From Alloyangia mangrovi (GTDB taxonomy: Bacteria > Pseudomonadota > Alphaproteobacteria > Rhodobacterales > Rhodobacteraceae), in the NCBI RefSeq assembly GCF_002300555.2, contig NZ_NTHN02000007.1, positions 62,001 through 126,000 on the forward strand: a stretch of DNA of 64,000 nt, written 5' to 3'. The position numbers and the translations under genes are program-made. Position 1 is the stretch's first letter. Each line of letters starts with the position of its first letter. The notes below the pieces were generated by a model, which made no database searches, was not told the DNA's origin, and worked only from the letters and a program-made list of their open reading frames with translations. Below are positions 52,565 to 62,989 of the stretch, in pieces.

Positions 52565-53557
52565 TTATTTCAGCGCTTCGTCGGTGATCGCATGGGTCCA
52601 GGCAGCCTCGCCCGGGTCCTTGGTGATCACCGGGTCGGCGCCGGCGCTCAGCAGCACCTCGACGGTGCGGGTGAAATCGGCCGGGTCGAGTGTACCGTCC
52701 GAGCCGGAGGTCAGCTTGGCGATCTCGCCCATCATGCGCTTCTGGTGCTTTTCGGTCTGGGCACCGGTCTCGTCATTTTCGAGCACGATCTCTGCGGCCT
52801 CGTCCGGGTTCTCCTCGGCGTATTTCCAGCCCTTCATCGAGGCGCGCACGAAGCGCACCAGCTTGTCGGTCATCGCGGGATCGGCAAGGTTCTCCTCGGT
52901 GGTGTAGAGACCGTCCTCGAGCGTCGCGATGCCCTCGTCCTGGTACTTGAAGACCACCAGATCCTCGGGAGACAGACCCGCGTCGATCACCTGCCAATAC
53001 TCGTTGTAGGTCATTGTGGTGGCGCATTCGACCTGCTTCTGCAGCAGCGGATCGACGTTGAAGTTGATCTTCTGGATGGTCACCCCGCCCTCGGAGCCGT
53101 CGGTCGCGTAGCCGAGCTTGGACATCCACGAATAGAGCGGCAGCTCGTTGCCGAAGAACCAGGTGCCGAGCGTGTGGCCGGGGAAATCGGCGGGGCTCTC
53201 GATGCCGTGCTCCTTGAGGCAGGTCAGCATCAGCCCCGAGGACTTGAAGGGCTGGGCAATGTTGACGATCGGGGCACCGTTCTCACGCGCCGCCAGCGCC
53301 GAGGGCAGCCAGTCGACCATCACGTCGGCACCGCCGCCGAGCAGCACCTGCACGGGCGCGATGTCGGGCCCGCCCGGCTTGATCGTCACGTCGAGGTCCT
53401 CTTCCTCGTAGAAGCCCTTCTCGGCCGCCACGTAGTAGCCGGCGAACTGGGCCTGGGTCACCCACTTGAGCTGCAGCGTCAGCTCGTCCGCGGCCTGTGC
53501 ACCGCCGGCGGCGAGCAGCATCGCCGAGGCAATCCCCCATCCGGTAAACTTGGTCAT
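52565..53557 (-). CDS. ABC substrate-binding protein, NMT1/THI5-like (pyrimidine type)
   Basis: About 330 aa with a Sec signal (GIASAMLLAAGGAQAADE). The NMT1-like ligand-binding fold reads LQLKWVTQAQFAGYYVAAEK, GPDIAPVQVLLGGGADVMVD and LGTWFFGNELPLYSWM. The family binds pyrimidine precursors or related ring compounds in the periplasm. ATG 53557 has AGGAGAG 5 nt upstream. Last gene of the pyrimidine operon, which suggests uracil, thymine or dihydropyrimidine uptake. Confidence 0.9.
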   Translation of the reverse strand: MTKFTGWGIASAMLLAAGGAQAADELTLQLKWVTQAQFAGYYVAAEKGFYEEEDLDVTIKPGGPDIAPVQVLLGGGADVMVDWLPSALAARENGAPIVNIAQPFKSSGLMLTCLKEHGIESPADFPGHTLGTWFFGNELPLYSWMSKLGYATDGSEGGVTIQKINFNVDPLLQKQVECATTMTYNEYWQVIDAGLSPEDLVVFKYQDEGIATLEDGLYTTEENLADPAMTDKLVRFVRASMKGWKYAEENPDEAAEIVLENDETGAQTEKHQKRMMGEIAKLTSGSDGTLDPADFTRTVEVLLSAGADPVITKDPGEAAWTHAITDEALK

Positions 53558-53611
53558 GACTCTCTCCTGTTGCATTGCGCGTTTCTTTGTCTTTCACCGC
53601 AGTTTGCTGTG

Positions 53612-54451
53612 TCACCGGCCCCGCTGCGACGGGTGCCAGAAGGTCGCGGCGCGTTCGATCAGCGCCACGCCGCCGTAGAAGGCCGAGCCCGCAAGCGCGG
53701 CCACCACGATCTCTGCCCACACGAGGTCGAGCTGCAGCAGCCCGACGCTGGTGGAAATCCGAAAGCCCATGCCGGTGATCGGCGAGCCGAAGAACTCGGC
53801 CACGATGGCGCCGATCAGCGCGAGGGTGGAGGCGATCTTCAGCCCGTTGAAGATGAAGGGCAGCGCCGCCGGCAGGCGCAGCTTCCACAGGCTGGTCCAG
53901 TAACCCGCGGCATAGGTGCGCATCAGATCGCGCTGCATGGCGCTGGTGTCCGCCAGCCCCTGCACCGCGTTGACCAGCACCGGGAAGAACACCATGACCA
54001 CCACGACCGCCGCCTTCGACTGCCAGTCGAAGCCGAACCACATGACGAGGATCGGCGCGATGCCGATGATCGGCAGCGCCGCGACGAAGTTGCCCACCGG
54101 CAAGAGGCCGCGGCGGAGAAAGTCGAAGCGGTCCACCACGATCGCCGTCAGCAGCGCCGCGCCGCAGCCCAGCACGTAGCCGGTGAGCGCGCCCTTCAGC
54201 ACGGTCTGCACGAAGTCCTGCCAGAGCACCCCGCCCGACTGGGCAAAGCGCGCCGCGATCACCGAGGGCGCGGGCAGCAACACCGGCGAGATGCCGAAGC
54301 CGCGCACCACCGCCTCCCAGACGAAGACCAGCACCATCCCGAAGATCACCGGCACCGCCAGCGCCGCCGCGCGGCTCCGGCTTTTCGACAGTCGCACGTT
54401 GGCCCAGAGACCCAGCGCCCAGACGATCAGCCCAGCGAGTATCCAGCTCAT
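53612..54451 (-). CDS. ABC transporter permease (pyrimidine-type importer)
   Basis: 279 aa, BPD_transp_1 fold with about six membrane segments. The EAA-type cytoplasmic loop is LMRTYAAGYWTSLWKLRLPA followed by ALPFIFNGLKIA. Its ATG overlaps the stop of the preceding permease by 4 nt, so the two form a heterodimeric channel. Confidence 0.92.
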   Translation of the reverse strand: MSWILAGLIVWALGLWANVRLSKSRSRAAALAVPVIFGMVLVFVWEAVVRGFGISPVLLPAPSVIAARFAQSGGVLWQDFVQTVLKGALTGYVLGCGAALLTAIVVDRFDFLRRGLLPVGNFVAALPIIGIAPILVMWFGFDWQSKAAVVVVMVFFPVLVNAVQGLADTSAMQRDLMRTYAAGYWTSLWKLRLPAALPFIFNGLKIASTLALIGAIVAEFFGSPITGMGFRISTSVGLLQLDLVWAEIVVAALAGSAFYGGVALIERAATFWHPSQRGR

Positions 54452-55308
54452 GCCATGCCCATCCGCTTGAGGGTGATCCTCTGGATGAGGCCGATCAGCC
54501 CCACCAGCACCGCCGCCAGCGCCGCCGCCATGAGGAGCGCCGACCAGATTTGTATGGTCTGCCCGTAGTAGCTCCCCGCCAGCAGCCGCGCGCCGAGCCC
54601 CGCCACAGCGCCGGTCGGCAGCTCGCCGACGATGGCGCCGACGAGGCTCGCCGCCATGGCGATCTTCATCGAGGCAAAGAGATAGGGCATCGAGGCCGGA
54701 AGCCGCAGCCGCCAGAACTCCTGCGCCCGCGTGGCGCTCCAGGTGCGCATCTGGTCGAGCTGCATCGCGTCGGGGCTGCGCAGCCCCTTCACCATGCCCA
54801 CGACCACCGGAAAGAACGACAGGTACATCGAGATCATCGCCTTGGGCAGCAGCCCCGAGATGCCGATGGCGTTCAGCACCACGATGATCATCGGCGCGAT
54901 TGCGAGGATGGGGATGGTCTGGCTGGCGATCACCCAGGGCATCACCGAGCGGTCCATCACCTGGTTGTAGACAATGCCCACCGCCAGCGCGAAGCCAAGC
55001 AACGTGCCGAGCCCGAACCCGAGCACCGTGGCGCTCATTGTCACCCAGGCGTGATAGACGAGGCTGCGCTTAGAGGTGGGCTTTTTCATTGCCACCGTGT
55101 CCCAGAGCTCGGCGGCCACCTGGTGCGGCGCGGGCAGCTTGGGTTTCTCCTGAGCCCAGGTCTCGGCAATCAGCTCGGAGGTGGTCAGCACACGATCCTG
55201 CCGCGCCGCCTGGTCGAGCACCCATTGCCTGTTGAGCATCACGGCCGCGCCATACCAGATCACCAGGATCGCCAGCACGACGGTCAGAACGGGGATCACG
55301 TTTCTCAT
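54448..55308 (-). CDS. ABC transporter permease (pyrimidine-type importer)
   Basis: About 286 aa. It has an N-terminal membrane anchor and a long periplasmic stretch, then the BPD_transp_1 core (ATVLGFGLGTLLGFALAVGI) and the EAA loop (WSATRAQEFWRLRLPASMPY). ATG 55308 overlaps the GNAT gene stop by 4 nt and is preferred over 55317. Partner of the next permease. Confidence 0.92.
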   Translation of the reverse strand: MRNVIPVLTVVLAILVIWYGAAVMLNRQWVLDQAARQDRVLTTSELIAETWAQEKPKLPAPHQVAAELWDTVAMKKPTSKRSLVYHAWVTMSATVLGFGLGTLLGFALAVGIVYNQVMDRSVMPWVIASQTIPILAIAPMIIVVLNAIGISGLLPKAMISMYLSFFPVVVGMVKGLRSPDAMQLDQMRTWSATRAQEFWRLRLPASMPYLFASMKIAMAASLVGAIVGELPTGAVAGLGARLLAGSYYGQTIQIWSALLMAAALAAVLVGLIGLIQRITLKRMGMA

Positions 55309-55736
55309 CGCACCCACTCCATCCGCAGCTCGGGAAGCTCGTGCGGCGGCTCCGGGTCGACCTCCCCCGCATCGACGAAGCCCTCGCGTCTGTAGAAGCG
55401 CTGTGCGGCCTCGTTGGCGACATGAGTGTGCAGGAAGAGCGCGTCGCGCCCCTCCTTGGCCTTGTCCATCAGCGCCTTGCCGAGCCCCGCCCCGCTGCGC
55501 GCGCAGTAGAGCGCCCCGACCTTACCTGTTCCCGGATCGACCGAGAGGTAGCCTTCGACCGGCTCGCCGATCACCCAGATCTCGCGCTCGGGGAAGGCGT
55601 CGCGCAGGAAACCCTCGACCTCTTCGGCCGAATGCACCCGCGGGAACCACGGGCTCGCATCGATCCAGCCGTTCACCACCGCCGCGCAGGCGGGAATGTC
55701 GGACTCCCCGGCGCGCCTGACCAGCAGATCAGTCAT
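55305..55736 (-). CDS. GNAT-family N-acetyltransferase
   Basis: 143 aa. GNAT core with the acetyl-CoA loop around RSGAGLGKALMDKAKEGRDA and the C-terminal HTHVANEAAQRFYRREGFVD. ATG 55736 overlaps the ATPase gene end by 8 nt, and its stop overlaps the permease start. It is therefore fully embedded in the pyrimidine transporter operon. Its substrate is unknown; beta-alanine or a beta-amino acid product would be a guess. Confidence 0.88.
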   Translation of the reverse strand: MTDLLVRRAGESDIPACAAVVNGWIDASPWFPRVHSAEEVEGFLRDAFPEREIWVIGEPVEGYLSVDPGTGKVGALYCARSGAGLGKALMDKAKEGRDALFLHTHVANEAAQRFYRREGFVDAGEVDPEPPHELPELRMEWVR

Positions 55737-56550
55737 AGGCATGCCCCGCCCGCAGCCCCTCACGCACACGGTGGGCGATCTCGAGGAACTCCGGGCTGTC
55801 GCGGATCTCCAGCGGCCGCTCCTTCGGCAGCGGGCTTTCGATGATGTCGGTGATCCGCCCCGGACGCGGCGACATGACGACGATCTTGGTCGAGAGATAC
55901 ACGGCCTCGGGAATAGAGTGGGTGACGAAGCAGATGGTCTTCTCGGTGCGTGCCCAGAGCGCGAGTAGCTGCTCGTTCAGGTGATCGCGCACGATCTCGT
56001 CGAGCGCGCCGAAGGGTTCGTCCATCAACAGGATGTCTGCATCAAACGCCAGCGCCCGGGCAATCGAGGCCCTTTGCTGCATGCCGCCCGAAAGCTGCCA
56101 GGGGTACTTTTTCTCGAAGCCCGACAGCTCCACCAGTTCCAGCACCCGCTGCACCCGATCGGCCTGCTCCGCCTTCGGATAGCCCATGATCTCCAGCGGA
56201 AGGCGGATGTTGCCGCCGATGGTGCGCCAAGGATAAAGCCCCGCCGCCTGGAAGACATAGCCATAGGCGCGCGCCTTGCGGGCGGCCTCGGGGGTCACGC
56301 CGTTGACCAGCACGGTACCGGAGGTCGGCGTCTCGAGATCCGCCATCACCCGGAGGAAGGTGGTCTTGCCGCAGCCCGAGGGACCGATGAAGGAGACGAA
56401 GTCGCCCTTGCCGATCTCCAGGTCCACATCCTTGAGGGCCTGCACCGGGCCGTCGTTCGTCTCGTAGACGAGGTTCAGCCCCTCGGCCGAGATCACCGTC
56501 CGTGCCGGCGCGGCACCGGCCGCCTGGGCGACCGCTTTCTGTGTCATCAT
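55729..56550 (-). CDS. ABC transporter ATPase (pyrimidine-type importer)
   Basis: 273 aa, SsuB/TauB-like. Walker A SFIGPSGCGKTTFLRVMADL, Q-loop VFQAAGLYPWRTI, signature LSGGMQQRASIARA, Walker B ILLMDEPFGALDEIVRD and switch His in CFVTHSIPEAVYLS. It energises the two permeases encoded downstream. Start at 56550 or 56547 (ATGATG). Confidence 0.94.
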   Translation of the reverse strand: MMTQKAVAQAAGAAPARTVISAEGLNLVYETNDGPVQALKDVDLEIGKGDFVSFIGPSGCGKTTFLRVMADLETPTSGTVLVNGVTPEAARKARAYGYVFQAAGLYPWRTIGGNIRLPLEIMGYPKAEQADRVQRVLELVELSGFEKKYPWQLSGGMQQRASIARALAFDADILLMDEPFGALDEIVRDHLNEQLLALWARTEKTICFVTHSIPEAVYLSTKIVVMSPRPGRITDIIESPLPKERPLEIRDSPEFLEIAHRVREGLRAGHAYD

Positions 56551-56613: not shown

Positions 56614-58065
56614 TCACACCCCGGAGGCCGGGATGCCCGTACGTTCCACCTTGCGCGGCGCGGTCAGCTCCTTCCACGAGCTCAGCGCCTTGTTCACCGC
56701 CCCGGCGGGCGGGCGGGCGACGAACTGGCCGTGCCCTTCCTCGGAACTCATCGCGCCCTCGGTCACCGAGACCTTGCCCCGGCTCAGCACGAAGCGTGGC
56801 AGACCTTTCACCGTCATGCCCTCGAAGACGTTGTAATCGATGGCCGACTGCTGGGTCTTGGCCGAGATCACCTTCTCCCGGGTCGGGTCGAGCACGACGA
56901 TGTCGGCATCGGCGCCGACAAGTATGGCCCCCTTGCGCGGGTAGATGTTGAGGATCTTGGCGATGTTGGTCGAGGTGACCGCGACGAACTCCTGCGGCGT
57001 CAGGCGGCCAGTGCCCACGCCCTGCGTCCAGAGCATCGGCAGCCGGTCCTCGAGCCCGCCGGTGCCATTGGGGATCTTGGTGAAGTCACCGACGCCGTAG
57101 CGCTTCTGGTCGGTGGTGAAGGCACAATGGTCGGTCGCCACGCAGGACAGCGATCCCGCGGCCAGCCCGGCCCAGAGGCTGTCCTGATGCGCCTTGTTGC
57201 GGAAGGGCGGCGACATCACCCGGCGCGCCGCGTGGTCCCAGTCGGGGTGGGCGTATTCGCTCTCATCCAGGGTCAGGTGCTGGATCAGCGGCTCGCCCCA
57301 GACCCGCTTGCCCGCCTGACGGGCGCGGCGGATCGCCTCGTGGCTCTCCTCGCAGCTGACGTGCACCACGTAGAGCGGCACGCCGGCCATGTCGGCGATC
57401 ATGATCGCACGGTTGGTGGCCTCGCCCTCGACCTGTGGCGGGCGTGAATAGGCGTGCGCCTCGGGGCCGTTGTTGCCGGCGGCGAGCAGCTTGGCGGAAA
57501 GTTCCGCCACCACGTCGCCATTCTCGGCATGCACCAGCGGGATCGCCCCCAGCTCGGCGCAGCGCTGGAACGAGGCGAAGAGCTCGTCGTCGTTCACCAT
57601 CAGCGCACCCTTGTAGGCCATGAAGTGCTTGAAGGTGGTGATGCCGCGATCCACCACCTCCTTCATCTCGTTGAACACCTGTTCGCTCCACCAGGTCACC
57701 GCCATGTGGAAGGAGTAGTCGCAATGCGCGCGGGTCGACTTGTTGTCCCACATCTGCAGCGCGTCGAGCAGCCCCTGCCCCGGCGAGGGCAGCGCGAAGT
57801 CGACCACCATGGTGGTGCCCCCCGCCAGCGCCGCGCGAGTGCCGCTGTCGAAGTCGTCGGCCGAATATGTGCCCATGAAGGGCATCTCGAGGTGGGTGTG
57901 CGGGTCGATCCCGCCGGGCATCACGTAGCAGCCCGAGGCGTCCAGCACCTCGTCGCCCTTGAGGTTCTGGCCGATCTCGGCGATGCGGCCGCCCTCGATT
58001 CGCACGTCGGCCTCATAACTCAGGTCGGCGGTGACGACGGTGCCGCCCTTGATCACTGTGGACAT
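56614..58065 (-). CDS. hydA: Dihydropyrimidinase (hydantoinase family)
   Basis: 483 aa. It hydrolyses dihydrouracil or dihydrothymine to N-carbamoyl-beta-amino acids. The amidohydrolase motifs are CYVMPGGIDPHTHLEMPFMG (metal His-x-His), TTFKHFMAYKGAL with the Lys to be carboxylated, VHAENGDVV and VATDHCAFTTDQK with the metal Asp. ATG 58065 has GGGAGG upstream; the frame runs further up but without a better start. It is the second gene of the pathway operon. Confidence 0.94.
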   Translation of the reverse strand: MSTVIKGGTVVTADLSYEADVRIEGGRIAEIGQNLKGDEVLDASGCYVMPGGIDPHTHLEMPFMGTYSADDFDSGTRAALAGGTTMVVDFALPSPGQGLLDALQMWDNKSTRAHCDYSFHMAVTWWSEQVFNEMKEVVDRGITTFKHFMAYKGALMVNDDELFASFQRCAELGAIPLVHAENGDVVAELSAKLLAAGNNGPEAHAYSRPPQVEGEATNRAIMIADMAGVPLYVVHVSCEESHEAIRRARQAGKRVWGEPLIQHLTLDESEYAHPDWDHAARRVMSPPFRNKAHQDSLWAGLAAGSLSCVATDHCAFTTDQKRYGVGDFTKIPNGTGGLEDRLPMLWTQGVGTGRLTPQEFVAVTSTNIAKILNIYPRKGAILVGADADIVVLDPTREKVISAKTQQSAIDYNVFEGMTVKGLPRFVLSRGKVSVTEGAMSSEEGHGQFVARPPAGAVNKALSSWKELTAPRKVERTGIPASGV

Positions 58066-58177: not shown

Positions 58178-59428
58178 TCAGGCGACGATCTCCGCGGTCT
58201 CGAGCACCGCGTGGAACAGCACATCGGTGCCCGCAGCCGCCCAGTCCTGCGAGATCTCCTCGGCCTCGTTGTGCGAGATGCCGTCGACGCAGGGGCACAT
58301 GACCATGGTCGCGGGGGCCACCTTGGCGGCCCAGCAGGCATCGTGGCCCGCGCCCGAGATGATGTTCATGTGCGAGTAGCCCAGCCGCTCGGCGGCATTG
58401 CGGACGTTCTCGACCAGCTCGGGGGCAAAGGTCACCGGGTCGAAATGGCCGACCGGCTCGACCGCGCAGCCGACGCCCAACTCGGCGCAGATCTCCGCCG
58501 CGCGTGTCTCGATCTCGGCGCGCATGCCGTCGAGCTTGGCCTGATCGGGCGAGCGGATGTCGACGGTGAAGACCACGCTGCCGGGCAGCACGTTGCGCGA
58601 GTTTGGCGAGAAGGTCACCTGCCCCACCCCGCCGACGGCGCCGGGCTGGGCGGCCATGGCCACCTCCTGCAACATCTCGAAGATGCGGCCCATGGCGAGC
58701 CCGGCGTTCACCCGCATGTCCATCGGCGTCGAGCCGGTGTGCGCGGCCTTGCCGGTCAGGGTGAACTCGAGCCACCAGAGCCCCTGGCAATGGGTGACCA
58801 CGCCGATGTCGCGGCCCTCGGCCTCGAGGATCGGCCCCTGCTCGATGTGCAGCTCGTAATAGGCGTGCATCTTGCGCGCGCCGACCTCTTCCTCGCCCTG
58901 CCAGCCGATGCGCTTGAGCTCGTCGCCATAGGTCTTGCCCTCGAGATCCTTCCGCCCGTAGGCGTAGTCGAGGTCAAGCACCCCGGCAAAGACCCCCGAG
59001 GCCAGCATGGCCGGGGCAAAGCGCGCGCCCTCCTCGTTCGCCCAGTTGGTGACCACGATCGGGTGTTTCGTCTTGATGCCGAGGTCGTTCATCGTGCGCA
59101 CCGCCTCGAGCGCGCCCAACACCCCCAGCACGCCATCGTACTTGCCGCCCGTCGGCTGGGTGTCGAGGTGCGAGCCTACGTAGACCGGCAGCGCGTCCGG
59201 ATCCTCGCCTGCCCGAGTGGCGAACATCGTGCCCATGGCGTCGACGCCCATGGTCATGCCCGCGGCCTCGCACCAGCTCCGGAACAGCGCACGGCCCTCG
59301 GCGTCCTCGTCAGTGAGCGTCTGGCGGTTGTTGCCCCCGGCGATGCCCGGCCCGATCTTGGCCATCTCCATCAGGCTGTCCCAGAGTCGGTCGCCATCGA
59401 TCCGGAGGTTCTCGCCCGGTGCCGCCAT
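58178..59428 (-). CDS. Beta-ureidopropionase / Zn-dependent M20-type amidohydrolase
   Basis: 416 aa. It hydrolyses N-carbamoyl-beta-alanine to beta-alanine, CO2 and ammonia (pathway inference; allantoate or other carbamoyl amino acids are alternatives). Metal and substrate motifs are VGSHLDTQPTGGKYDGVLGV, WANEEGARFAPAM, YYELHIEQGPILE and GAGHDACWAA. ATG 59428 has GAGG 8 nt upstream; a longer frame to 59527 would run through the RutR box and is rejected. First gene of the minus-strand operon. Confidence 0.92.
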   Translation of the reverse strand: MAAPGENLRIDGDRLWDSLMEMAKIGPGIAGGNNRQTLTDEDAEGRALFRSWCEAAGMTMGVDAMGTMFATRAGEDPDALPVYVGSHLDTQPTGGKYDGVLGVLGALEAVRTMNDLGIKTKHPIVVTNWANEEGARFAPAMLASGVFAGVLDLDYAYGRKDLEGKTYGDELKRIGWQGEEEVGARKMHAYYELHIEQGPILEAEGRDIGVVTHCQGLWWLEFTLTGKAAHTGSTPMDMRVNAGLAMGRIFEMLQEVAMAAQPGAVGGVGQVTFSPNSRNVLPGSVVFTVDIRSPDQAKLDGMRAEIETRAAEICAELGVGCAVEPVGHFDPVTFAPELVENVRNAAERLGYSHMNIISGAGHDACWAAKVAPATMVMCPCVDGISHNEAEEISQDWAAAGTDVLFHAVLETAEIVA

Positions 59429-59498: not shown

Positions 59499-59514
59499 TT
59501 TACCATTTGGTAAA
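59499..59514. promoter_or_regulatory. rutR: RutR-type operator: perfect palindrome
   Basis: TTTACCA-TT-TGGTAAA, a perfect 7-bp inverted repeat in the divergent region between the ureidopropionase gene and rutR. It closely resembles the E. coli RutR box (TTGACCA-N2-TGGTCAA). Confidence 0.8.
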
Positions 59515-59626
59515 GCCACGATTGCAATGCGCCCCGAACCTGTCAAGAAATCCCTGCCTTGGCCCCCGGGACGGATGCGCATAGAGCGGGCAGCGCCGCC
59601 CGGAAAAGCAGCAGCCAAGGAATGCC

Positions 59627-60250
59627 ATGCCCGCTCCTCCCGAGAAAAAGCCCAGCCGAATCCAGATCCGCAACCGCCGCAAGATCATGGATGCCGCGCT
59701 GGATGTCTTCTCACAGCACGGCTTTCGGGGTGCGACGCTCGACCAGATCGCCGAGGCCGCGGGCATGTCGAAGCCCAATCTCATCTACTATTTCGACGGC
59801 AAGGAGGCGATCCACGTCGCCCTGCTGAACGCGCTCATGACCGAATGGCTCGACCCGCTGCGCGAGATGGATGCGCAGGGCGATCCGCTGCAGGAGATCC
59901 TCGCCTACGTCCGACGCAAGATGGAAATGAGCCGTCAGTTCCCGCGCGAGAGCCGACTCTTCGCGATCGAAATCATCCAGGGCGCGCCGCGCATGCTGCC
60001 GCACCTCGAGAGTGACCTGAAGCCACTCTTCGACGAGAAATGCGCGCTGATCGCGGGCTGGATGGAGGCCGGCAAGCTCGCCCCGCAGGATCCGCAGCAA
60101 CTTGTCATGTCGATCTGGGCGCTGACCCAGCATTTCGCCGACTTCGACACGCAGGTGCGGGTTCTGGTGCCCGACGAGGTCGCGGGCTGGGACGCGGCGA
60201 ATGCCCATGTCGAGACGATCTTCAAGGCGATCCTGACGCCGAAGGGGTGA
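59627..60250 (+). CDS. rutR: TetR-family repressor RutR
   Basis: 207 aa. The N-terminal helix-turn-helix is RKIMDAALDVFSQHGFRGAT, LDQIAEAAGMSKPNLIYYFD. The C-terminal domain matches my memory of E. coli RutR closely (EYIRLKLEVSR there, AYVRRKMEMSRQFPRESRLF here; also LIAGWMEAGKLAPQDPQQLV and WALTQHFADFDTQV). RutR is released from DNA by uracil or thymine. It is divergent from the catabolic operon and near two RutR-like boxes. Confidence 0.93.
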   Translation: MPAPPEKKPSRIQIRNRRKIMDAALDVFSQHGFRGATLDQIAEAAGMSKPNLIYYFDGKEAIHVALLNALMTEWLDPLREMDAQGDPLQEILAYVRRKMEMSRQFPRESRLFAIEIIQGAPRMLPHLESDLKPLFDEKCALIAGWMEAGKLAPQDPQQLVMSIWALTQHFADFDTQVRVLVPDEVAGWDAANAHVETIFKAILTPKG

Positions 60251-60279
60251 GGCAGGGCCAACAGGCCCCGCCCCTTGGA

Positions 60280-61581
60280 TCACTCTGCCGCGCGGGCCAT
60301 CGGATTGTTGGGGTGGGTCGTCCAGTCGCCGAACTCCGCCGGCACCACCTTGCCGGTGCGCGGGTCCGTCGCCCCGATATCCATCCGCTCCATGCTGATG
60401 CATCCCTCGACCGGGCAGACATTGACGCAAAGATTGCAGGCCACGCACTCGTCGTCCTTCACAGTGAAGACCCGGTCCGGGGACATGGCGATCGCCTGGT
60501 GCGAGGTGTCCTCGCAGGCGGCATAGCAACGCCCGCAGGAGATGCAGAGGTCCTGGTCGATCTTGGCCTTGGAGATGGCGTTGAGGTTGAGGTTCTGCCA
60601 GTCCGACACGTTCGGCACCGCCCGGCCGACAAGGTCGGAAAGCCCCACGCCCTTCTCGTCGAGGTACTGCGACAGGCCCGAGATCATCTCCTGCACGACC
60701 TTGAAGCCGTAGGTCATCGCCGCGGTGCAGACTTGCACGTTGCCGGCCCCTAGCGCCATGAACTCTGCCGCGTCGCGCCATGTGGTGACGCCGCCGATGC
60801 CCGAGATCGGCATCCCGCGGGTCTCGGGCGAGCGGGCAATCTCGGCCACCATGTTGAGCGCAATCGGCTTCACTGCCGGGCCGCAGTAGCCGCCATGCGC
60901 GCCCTTGCCGTCGATGGTCGGCTCGGGGGCGAAGAGGTCGAGATCGACCGAGGTGATCGAGTTGATCGTATTGATGAGTGAGACCGCATCCGCGCCGCCG
61001 CGCTTGGCCGCTTCGGCGGGCTTGCGGATGTCGGTGATGTTGGGCGTCAGCTTGACGATGCAGGGCATACGCGAGTTCTGTTTCACCCAGCGCGTCACCA
61101 TCTCGATGTACTCGGGCACCTGCCCCACCGCCGAGCCCATGCCGCGCTCGCTCATCCCGTGCGGGCAGCCGAAGTTCAGCTCGACCCCGTCGGCGCCGGT
61201 CTCCTCGACCAGCGGCAGGATCGCCTTCCACGCCGCCTCCTCGCAGGGGACCATGAGCGAGACCACCAGCGCGCGGTCGGGATAGTCGCGCTTGACCGCC
61301 TTGATCTCGCGCAGGTTCACCTCGAGAGGCCGGTCGGTGATCAACTCGATGTTGTTCAGCCCCAAGAGCCGCCGGTCCGCACCCCAGATCGCGCCGTAGC
61401 GCGGGCCGTTGACGTTGACCACGGGCGGTCCTTCCTCGCCGAGGGTCTTCCAGACCACCCCGCCCCAGCCCGCCTCGTAGGCGCGGCGGACATTGTATTC
61501 CTTGTCCGTCGGCGGCGCCGAGGCCAGCCAGAACGGGTTGGGCGACTTGATGCCCACGAAAGTGCTCGTCAGATCAGCCAT
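60280..61581 (-). CDS. preA: NAD-dependent dihydropyrimidine dehydrogenase, subunit PreA
   Basis: 433 aa. A dihydroorotate-dehydrogenase-like FMN barrel with MADLTSTFVGIKSPNPFWLA, ELNFGCPHGMSERGMGSAVG and PISGIGGVTTWRDAAEF. The C-terminal domain binds two 4Fe-4S clusters (CISCGRCYAAC, CVACNLCVNVCPVEGC). With PreT it reduces uracil and thymine to dihydropyrimidines. It starts 12 nt after preT ends. Confidence 0.96.
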   Translation of the reverse strand: MADLTSTFVGIKSPNPFWLASAPPTDKEYNVRRAYEAGWGGVVWKTLGEEGPPVVNVNGPRYGAIWGADRRLLGLNNIELITDRPLEVNLREIKAVKRDYPDRALVVSLMVPCEEAAWKAILPLVEETGADGVELNFGCPHGMSERGMGSAVGQVPEYIEMVTRWVKQNSRMPCIVKLTPNITDIRKPAEAAKRGGADAVSLINTINSITSVDLDLFAPEPTIDGKGAHGGYCGPAVKPIALNMVAEIARSPETRGMPISGIGGVTTWRDAAEFMALGAGNVQVCTAAMTYGFKVVQEMISGLSQYLDEKGVGLSDLVGRAVPNVSDWQNLNLNAISKAKIDQDLCISCGRCYAACEDTSHQAIAMSPDRVFTVKDDECVACNLCVNVCPVEGCISMERMDIGATDPRTGKVVPAEFGDWTTHPNNPMARAAE

Positions 61582-61593
61582 GTCGGTCCCTCC

Positions 61594-62916
61594 TCAGCGC
61601 ATCAACGTGGCGTGGATGTCTTCGGCCGCGTCGCGGCCCTCGGCGACGGCGGTGACGGTCAGGTCATCGCCCCCGGCGGCGCAGTCTCCCCCGGCCCATA
61701 CCCCGGGCAACGAGGTGCGCCCCGGCCCCTCGACCGCGATCTTGCGGCCCGCGAGTACGGGCAGACCCTCCGTCACGAGGCTCTGGCCGATGGCGCGGAA
61801 CACCTGATCGGCGGGCAGTCGGAAGCTCTCGCCCGTCGGGGTGAGGTCATCGTCGGTGAACTCGAACTCGATCTCGCGCACCGCGCCGTTGCCGTGCACG
61901 CCCTTGGGCGTGGCGTTGCAGATGATCCGCACCCCCTTGGCCTGCGCCAGCTCCTGCTCGAATGCGCTCGCCGCCATGCGCGCCTGCGAGCGGCGGTAGA
62001 CGATGGTGACGTTGAGCGCGCCCAGCAGCTTGGCCTGCACGGCCGCATCCACGGCGGTCATGCCGCCGCCGATCACCACCACGTCGCGGCCCACGGGCAG
62101 TGCAGAAAGATCGCCTGCCTGCCGCAGTTCGGAAATGAACTCCACGGCGTTCAGCACGCCCTCGCGGTCGTCGCCCTCGATCCCCAGCGTGTTCACTCCG
62201 CCAAGGCCGAGCCCGAGGAAGACCGCGTCATAGTCCGAGGTCAGTTCCGTCAGCGTGAGGTCGCGCCCGAGCATCCGGCCGGTCTCTATGGTGATGCCGC
62301 CGATGCCGAGCAGCCAGTCCACCTCGCGCGCGGCGAAATCGTCGGTGCTCTTGTAGGCGGCGATGCCGAACTCGTTGAGCCCGCCGGGCTTGGCGCGCGC
62401 GTCGAGGATGACCACGTCATGGCCCTTCATCGCCAGACGGTGCGCGCAGGACAGGCCCGCAGGCCCCGCCCCCACAACAACAACGCGCTTGCCAGTGGGG
62501 GCCGCGCGCTCGAAGGGGTGAATGTTGCGCGCCATGATGCGGTCGGTGGCGTAGCGCTGCAGCCGGCCGATCTCGACCGGCTTGCCCTCGGCCACCTCGC
62601 GCACGCAGACCTCTTCGCAGAGGGTCTCGGTCGGGCAGACCCGGGCGCACATGCCGCCGAGGATGTTCTGCGACAGGATCGTCTTCGCGGCCGCCTCGGG
62701 CGTGCCGGTCGCGATCTGCCGGATGAAGAGCGGAATGTCGATCGAGGTCGGGCATGCCGTCGCGCAGGGCGCGTCATGGCAGAAGTAGCAACGGTCCGCC
62801 GCCACCAGCGCCTCGTGATCGTCGTATGGAGGGTGCAGGTCGGAAAAGCCCTCCTCCAGCGCCTGCGGCTCCAGCCGTCCTGCGCGGATCCCTCCTGCCA
62901 GTTGTCTTGCGTCCAT
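61594..62916 (-). CDS. preT: NAD-dependent dihydropyrimidine dehydrogenase, subunit PreT
   Basis: 440 aa, GltD-like flavoprotein that passes electrons from NADH to PreA. N-terminal Cys clusters are CYFCHDAPCATACPTSIDIP and CARVCPTETLCEEVC. The FAD motif is VVVVGAGPAGLSCAHRLA and the NAD motif DVVVIGGGMTAVDAAVQA. ATG 62916 has GGGGAGG 8 nt upstream. A RutR-like box lies 58 bp upstream of the start. Confidence 0.95.
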   Translation of the reverse strand: MDARQLAGGIRAGRLEPQALEEGFSDLHPPYDDHEALVAADRCYFCHDAPCATACPTSIDIPLFIRQIATGTPEAAAKTILSQNILGGMCARVCPTETLCEEVCVREVAEGKPVEIGRLQRYATDRIMARNIHPFERAAPTGKRVVVVGAGPAGLSCAHRLAMKGHDVVILDARAKPGGLNEFGIAAYKSTDDFAAREVDWLLGIGGITIETGRMLGRDLTLTELTSDYDAVFLGLGLGGVNTLGIEGDDREGVLNAVEFISELRQAGDLSALPVGRDVVVIGGGMTAVDAAVQAKLLGALNVTIVYRRSQARMAASAFEQELAQAKGVRIICNATPKGVHGNGAVREIEFEFTDDDLTPTGESFRLPADQVFRAIGQSLVTEGLPVLAGRKIAVEGPGRTSLPGVWAGGDCAAGGDDLTVTAVAEGRDAAEDIHATLMR

Positions 62917-62973
62917 CGGTCGCCTCCCCGCTGCCTTTGCGCAATGGAGAAACGCTCTCACAGGTCAAATTTT

Positions 62974-62989
62974 TTTATCAATCGGTAAA
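62974..62989. promoter_or_regulatory. Second RutR-type operator, upstream of preT
   Basis: TTTATCAATCGGTAAA matches 13 of 16 positions of the perfect box at 59499-59514. It lies upstream of preT and would put preTA under the same repressor. Confidence 0.65.

Follow-up and report, generated by a model that had tools for sequence, protein, structure and literature searches.

RutR-type boxes at both promoters of a reductive pyrimidine cluster in Alloyangia mangrovi, and a matching box before its rutABCD operon

Which regulator governs the reductive breakdown of uracil in Alloyangia mangrovi (Rhodobacteraceae), and does it serve this route alone? The question is raised by a stretch of 64,000 nucleotides (contig NZ_NTHN02000007.1, positions 62,001 to 126,000 of the forward strand; the whole stretch is hereafter the window), in which two RutR-like boxes sit in a reductive pyrimidine cluster composed of preT, preA, a TetR gene, hyuC, a dihydropyrimidinase gene and an NMT1-type ATP-binding cassette (ABC) transporter. 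From their sequence and conservation, it is very likely that the two palindromes serve a RutR-type uracil sensor as operators for the reductive genes, here and in relatives. To the broader reading, i.e., that one uracil-released repressor switches both uracil routes of this genome (reductive and Rut) and an importer, we give a probability of roughly 0.8, binding, repression, ligand and promoter positions all being inferred.

Operator 1 (59499-59514, no strand), between the divergent hyuC and rutR genes, reads TTTACCATTTGGTAAA, i.e., a perfect 7+2+7 palindrome. Operator 2 (62974-62989, minus strand), upstream of preT, reads TTTATCAATCGGTAAA (TTTACCGATTGATAAA on the strand of preT) and is identical to operator 1 at 13 of 16 bases. 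Within the window, TTTACCANNTGGTAAA at up to three mismatches has two sites against 0.16 expected (2 of 100 shuffles reached two), while TTKACCRNNYGGTMAA at up to one mismatch has two against 0.02 expected (0 of 100 shuffles). In the whole genome (5.53 megabases), TTKACCRNNYGGTMAA is perfect at two places only, position 59499 and a site before rutA. A narrower pattern at up to three mismatches yields 47 genome matches vs. 74 for its reversed-pattern control, and the box at 62974 is not outstanding alone in the genome, since the reversed control is richer than the pattern; as one-genome counts are not enriched over this control, the case rests on conservation. Nine one-mismatch genome sites (C44, C81, C89, two on C100, C101, C102, C107, C112) were set aside for the same lack of enrichment: eight of them overlap an open reading frame (ORF) of at least 110 amino acids, and the ninth (C112), 80 base pairs (bp) before an NMT1-type binding-protein gene, is not claimed as a RutR site.

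Conservation was examined in a family sample of 100 genomes (own included), in 83 of which RutR was matched at E <= 1e-40. Every one of these 83 loci was used, and a box was scored at up to two mismatches to TTKACCANNTGGTMAA within 250 bp upstream of a gene. The box precedes preT in 60/60 usable loci (the remaining 23 are without a usable preT in the stretch) and rutR/hyuC in 67/82, while the control upstream regions of preA (0/61) and dihydropyrimidinase (0/70) have none. Averaged over 300 permuted palindromes, fewer than 0.5 loci were matched for either rutR or preT, and no permutation equalled the true counts at one or two mismatches. A scan of named genomes, covering the best 80 of 592 loci (mostly Rhodobacteraceae, some of Mesorhizobium type, partly overlapping the family set), gave a box before preT in 63/63 usable loci, before rutR in 53/79 and before dihydropyrimidinase in 0/69. 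Within the genus, the rutR box is present in 20/20 genomes (own included) and reads TTTACCATTTGGTAAA in 18 of them, while the preT box is usually fixed and slightly asymmetric (TTTACCRnTTGATAAA). In four loci (L098, L094, L097, L104), the preT box is preceded at 17 bp by a second box-like site, which hints at operators in tandem.

The TetR gene (59627..60250, plus strand) encodes a protein of 207 amino acids whose nearest solved structures are those of E. coli RutR (best entry 3loc, E=2.3e-55). With the window regulator as query, E. coli RutR scores 190.8 bits vs. 50.7 for the best non-RutR solved entry, and the two proteins are 47% identical over 196 residues (93 identical); the Pfam profiles TetR_C_3 (146.3 bits, cut-off 25) and TetR_N (55.6 bits, cut-off 24) are both matched above cut-off. 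The uracil contacts given for E. coli RutR in PMC10891134 (W77, Y97, W167, Q171, Q179) are all kept in the window regulator and in 83/83 family proteins, own included. In the recognition helix, T53 of E. coli corresponds to P in 83/83 family proteins, and K52 is kept in 82/83. Side-by-side pairs of RutR-like genes occur in four genomes (G139, G046, G615, G641). A second RutR-like TetR gene of A. mangrovi lies on contig C114 (L025 7656-8240, plus strand; 37%) and keeps the five uracil-contact residues, which are thus not specific to RutR. Its recognition helix reads TKAQLHYYI vs. SKPNLIYYF in the window RutR, and its cluster has genes for an ABC transporter, a RutG homologue (56%), a creatininase-like protein and, judged by eye, a cytosine-deaminase-like one. 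No site with up to two mismatches was found within 1.5 kilobases (kb) in nine paralog loci of the genus, and this paralog looks like a second pyrimidine sensor that would use another DNA site.

The original prediction, which had placed RutR-like boxes with a 13/16 match at both promoters of the reductive pathway, agrees with what we found at these coordinates, and the preT counts (60/60 and 63/63) together with the conservation at rutR back it beyond this genome; its RutR-like regulator is likewise borne out by the homology to E. coli RutR and by the pocket residues. The RutR-type protein, the boxes at both reductive promoters and their family-wide arrangement are supported. The prediction had also held that the regulator moved from the Rut pathway to the PreTA route, and this part fails on the further boxes for which it proposed to scan the genome: the second perfect TTKACCRNNYGGTMAA site (C145:3440) starts 82 bp ahead of a rutABCD operon. 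In the NCBIfam profiles, RutA (699 bits, cut-off 498), RutC and RutD are above cut-off, and RutB, from a roughly cut ORF, falls just under (374.7 vs. 377.95). No RutE, F or G was found in the rut stretches of three genus genomes, one of these stretches ending soon after rutD. The rutA gene is present in 7/20 genus genomes (own included; 94-100% identity), with the box at -81 or -82 in 7/7, and these carriers coincide exactly with the 7/20 genomes in which RutR shares 86% identity or more with that of the window. At the family level RutA is rare (2/100 genomes at E <= 1e-80, own included), and the other match (G042, 63%) is placed by a quick tree outside the RutA clade and is without box. Because rutABCD carries a conserved box of the same type, both uracil routes appear to lie in one RutR regulon in A. 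mangrovi, and the moved regulator becomes one regulator with two alternative pathways. Among rutA paralogs in the genus, eight more distant loci show no box at two mismatches, two of them having three-mismatch sites more than 400 bp away. Upstream of a 60% rutA paralog, five congeners (L154-L158) share a motif, seen by eye around GTCCGGAC and TTCGGACATA, and have no RutR box; the putative regulator of this paralog is a different one.

A gene for a Bmp/PnrA-type binding protein, which is followed by an ABC ATPase gene, has a fourth site, CTTACCGCTTGGTAAA (C33:62243), that starts 39 bp ahead of it. PnrA-like proteins bind nucleosides. The importer gene is found in 19/20 genus genomes, with the box in 19/19 (17 at zero and 2 at one mismatch to a pattern allowing Y and R at two ends); if the site is a true operator, a pyrimidine-type substrate is predicted for this importer. 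Sixteen further congener sites were inspected: seven precede the importer gene, and the other nine, among which are sites associated with a PreA-like gene (G111) and an NMT1-like protein (G117), are not claimed. In G111 (L224), a lone box-like site, TTTACCAATCGGTCAA, stands roughly 40 bp ahead of a second PreA-like gene, whose match to the 422-position PreA profile is confined to positions 3-332.

How would the boxes act? An alignment of 115 rutR and 118 preT sites was anchored on the boxes, which leaves only the flanks informative; in it, the conserved columns beside box 1 (115 sites) held TTGAC and an extended -10 directed at hyuC. In the window, the putative hyuC promoter (59518..59546, minus strand) has its -35 TTGACA at 59546-59541 and its extended -10 TGCAATCGT at 59526-59518, which would probably put the start point near 59511, inside operator 1. 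The right arm of operator 2, TTGATA, may double as a -35-like hexamer of preT. Both placements suit a repressor blocking RNA polymerase, since the operators overlap either the predicted start or the -35-like hexamer. Briefly, the TetR protein would be a RutR-type uracil (or thymine) sensor, the dimer of which would bind 16-bp palindromes of the form TTKACCRnnYGGTMAA and repress transcription until a pyrimidine in the conserved pocket releases it. Its regulon would consist of the divergent rutR / hyuC-dihydropyrimidinase operon (probably with the transporter), preTA, the rutABCD operon elsewhere in the genome and the Bmp/PnrA-type ABC importer, and entry of uracil would release RutR and open preTA, hyuC-dihydropyrimidinase, rutABCD and the importer.

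Several observations weigh against such a scheme. In the whole genome, TTKACCRNNYGGTMAA at up to one mismatch has 13 matches vs. 19 for its reversed-pattern control. One near-identical permuted pattern matched 59/60 preT regions at two mismatches; perfect matches to the true pattern occur before preT in just 1/60 loci, which 2/300 permutations equalled. The upstream regions of rutR are without box at two mismatches in 15/82 family loci and in 26/79 named loci (best 80 of 592), and the importer pattern was widened at its two end bases after the site had been seen. A simple promoter scan gave no sigma70-type consensus match. The regulator scores below both NCBIfam RutR cut-offs (TIGR03613, 221.5 vs. 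368 bits; NF011584, 206.8 vs. 230 bits), which is why we label it RutR-type, and the genome holds a second RutR-like paralog (on C114) with the same uracil pocket.

That paralog enters an alternative according to which RutR controls the reductive route only, the rutA box being incidental or bound by another TetR protein. In most of the family, indeed, RutR accompanies the reductive genes and RutA is absent (83/100 vs. 2/100, one of the latter outside the RutA clade in the quick tree), and the five pocket residues are shared by the C114 protein; yet the rutA box is of the same pattern, every one of the seven genus genomes with the gene keeps it, the paralog differs in its recognition helix and none of its nine genus loci has a site at up to two mismatches within 1.5 kb, so that we regard this alternative as unlikely. 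The conserved blocks might also be promoter elements rather than operators, with TTGACC and TTGATA as -35 hexamers, given that the preT right arm is -35-like and followed by further conserved columns, and that a conserved TTGAC and extended -10 adjoin operator 1. However, a promoter has no need of a palindrome, both arms are kept (often as a perfect dyad at rutR), and the same palindrome is found at four different promoters, at differing distances, which makes this possibility highly improbable. Finally, the protein could bind the boxes as an activator, in line with the indirect activation of carAB described for E. coli RutR in PMC10891134, or could sense another ligand such as dihydrouracil. 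The overlap of the operators with the putative start or the -35-like hexamer fits repression instead, and the uracil contacts are invariant (83/83), hence our view of this option as distinctly unlikely. The uracil-released repressor of both routes and of the importer is the reading that we retain.

In many relatives, the rutR box has the form TTGACC..GGTCAA and the preT box of the same locus the form TTTACC..GATAAA. As one locus can carry the TTG arm at one promoter and the TTT arm at another, the third base of the box is free between G and T, and the TTT form of the window is no new specificity; a coevolution of the third base with the recognition helix was dropped on the same ground. The original prediction compared the boxes with the E. 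coli RutR consensus, which we take to be TTGACCAnnTGGTCAA. The E. coli site is described as a palindrome of about 16 bp (PMC10891134). Our pattern misses the rut site of E. coli itself at up to two mismatches, and no pattern site at one mismatch was found in the loci closest to E. coli RutR; therefore it describes the alphaproteobacterial form.

From where did the rutA operator come? The RutA of A. mangrovi groups with that of E. coli (77%) and with those of three other alphaproteobacterial families (72-82%). In a class sample, 9/289 genomes have a RutA match at E <= 1e-100, and a scan for sigma54-like elements covered 9 of the 12 matches outside the genome of the window (L338-L340 were excluded as distant or at a contig end), i.e., five genomes in five families, with four matches from one genome. 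At up to three mismatches, a level reached by 96/2000 random 250-bp stretches, such an element precedes rutA in 8/9 scanned loci and in E. coli vs. 0/7 in the genus. Among the three other alphaproteobacterial families of the RutA clade (quick tree), two carry the element, while in the third (G399) a RutR box is present and the sigma54-like element absent. A tentative scenario, to which we lean somewhat less than to its negation, is that in a subclade of the genus the nitrogen-type (sigma54) promoter of rutABCD, a second and oxidative uracil pathway, was replaced by a RutR operator of the host, one uracil sensor thereby running two competing routes and a nucleoside/nucleobase importer; this exchange rests on few genomes. 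The RutR box may instead have come together with the rut operon, because G399 has a box without sigma54-like element and RutR boxes also stand beside rut genes in two other families (G527 and G723). Control of preT, hyuC and the importer by sigma54 in the genome of the window was rejected, the best matches having 7, 5 and 3 mismatches, respectively. If true, the shared control of both routes would also offer a case for studying how a seemingly acquired operon becomes connected to a regulon already in place.

The genes between and beside the two operators, all on the minus strand except that of the regulator, make up the reductive cluster. The preT gene (61594..62916), for the FAD/NAD (flavin/nicotinamide adenine dinucleotide) oxidoreductase subunit, was named by synteny, being directly upstream of preA and kept there in relatives; its profile matches are glutamate synthase small-subunit-like families, below cut-off. 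The preA gene (60280..61581) encodes the dihydropyrimidine dehydrogenase subunit (NF006183, 715 bits, cut-off 335), the hyuC-type gene (58178..59428) an N-carbamoyl amidohydrolase (NF006769, 685 bits, cut-off 452) and the next gene (56614..58065) dihydropyrimidinase (TIGR02033, 599.5 bits, cut-off 393). Family and context point to a ureidopropionase role for the hyuC-type product, and with preT placed by synteny the reductive set (preTA, dihydropyrimidinase and ureidopropionase) is complete in one place. The ABC transporter genes (52565..56550), i.e., an NMT1-type binding protein (PF09084), two permeases and an ATPase, identified by the PF09084 and ATPase matches and by synteny, are probably devoted to pyrimidine uptake; they are without a box of their own, the window holding two sites only, and a GNAT gene (55305-55769), identified by eye, lies between them.

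The association of RutR with particular genes varies. In a phylum sample, 100/398 genomes match E. coli RutR, and 30 loci were compared with 1.5 kb around each. Rut genes were recognised beside RutR in 18 of the 30, 14 of them with rutA and 4 with other rut genes only; 2 loci have hyuC together with a box and 1 has preA, while none of these genes was recognised within 1.5 kb in 9. As RutR neighbourhoods differ by lineage in this sample, its link with reductive genes looks like a lineage trait. In RegPrecise, 68 genomes from 13 proteobacterial groups have predicted RutR regulons, in which the motif carries substitutions specific to the taxon and the pathway is labelled pyrimidine catabolism (PMC5343134). 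RutR-Pyd control is probably already catalogued; in the open-licence literature, we found no description of one RutR serving both routes in one genome.

Like the RutR regulon of E. coli, the system of A. mangrovi combines a TetR-family protein, the same pocket residues, the same palindrome length and the predicted control of rut genes, and like known reductive Pyd clusters, as described in a paper on a clostridial enzyme (PMC7332683), it has a two-ORF dehydrogenase, a dihydropyrimidinase and a probable ureidopropionase. It differs from E. coli in that its rutR lies in the reductive cluster instead of beside rutA, in that preTA/hyuC and an ABC importer are included in the proposed regulon, in its TTT/AAA box arms and in the sigma54-like element, which E. 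coli rutA has and the genus lacks. Set against these systems, the locus offers a well-supported operator pair of a known regulator kind, the novelty being the apparent placement of both uracil routes under one operator, which, if true, would make a clear case for the question of why a bacterium keeps an oxygen-consuming and a reductive uracil route under a single signal.

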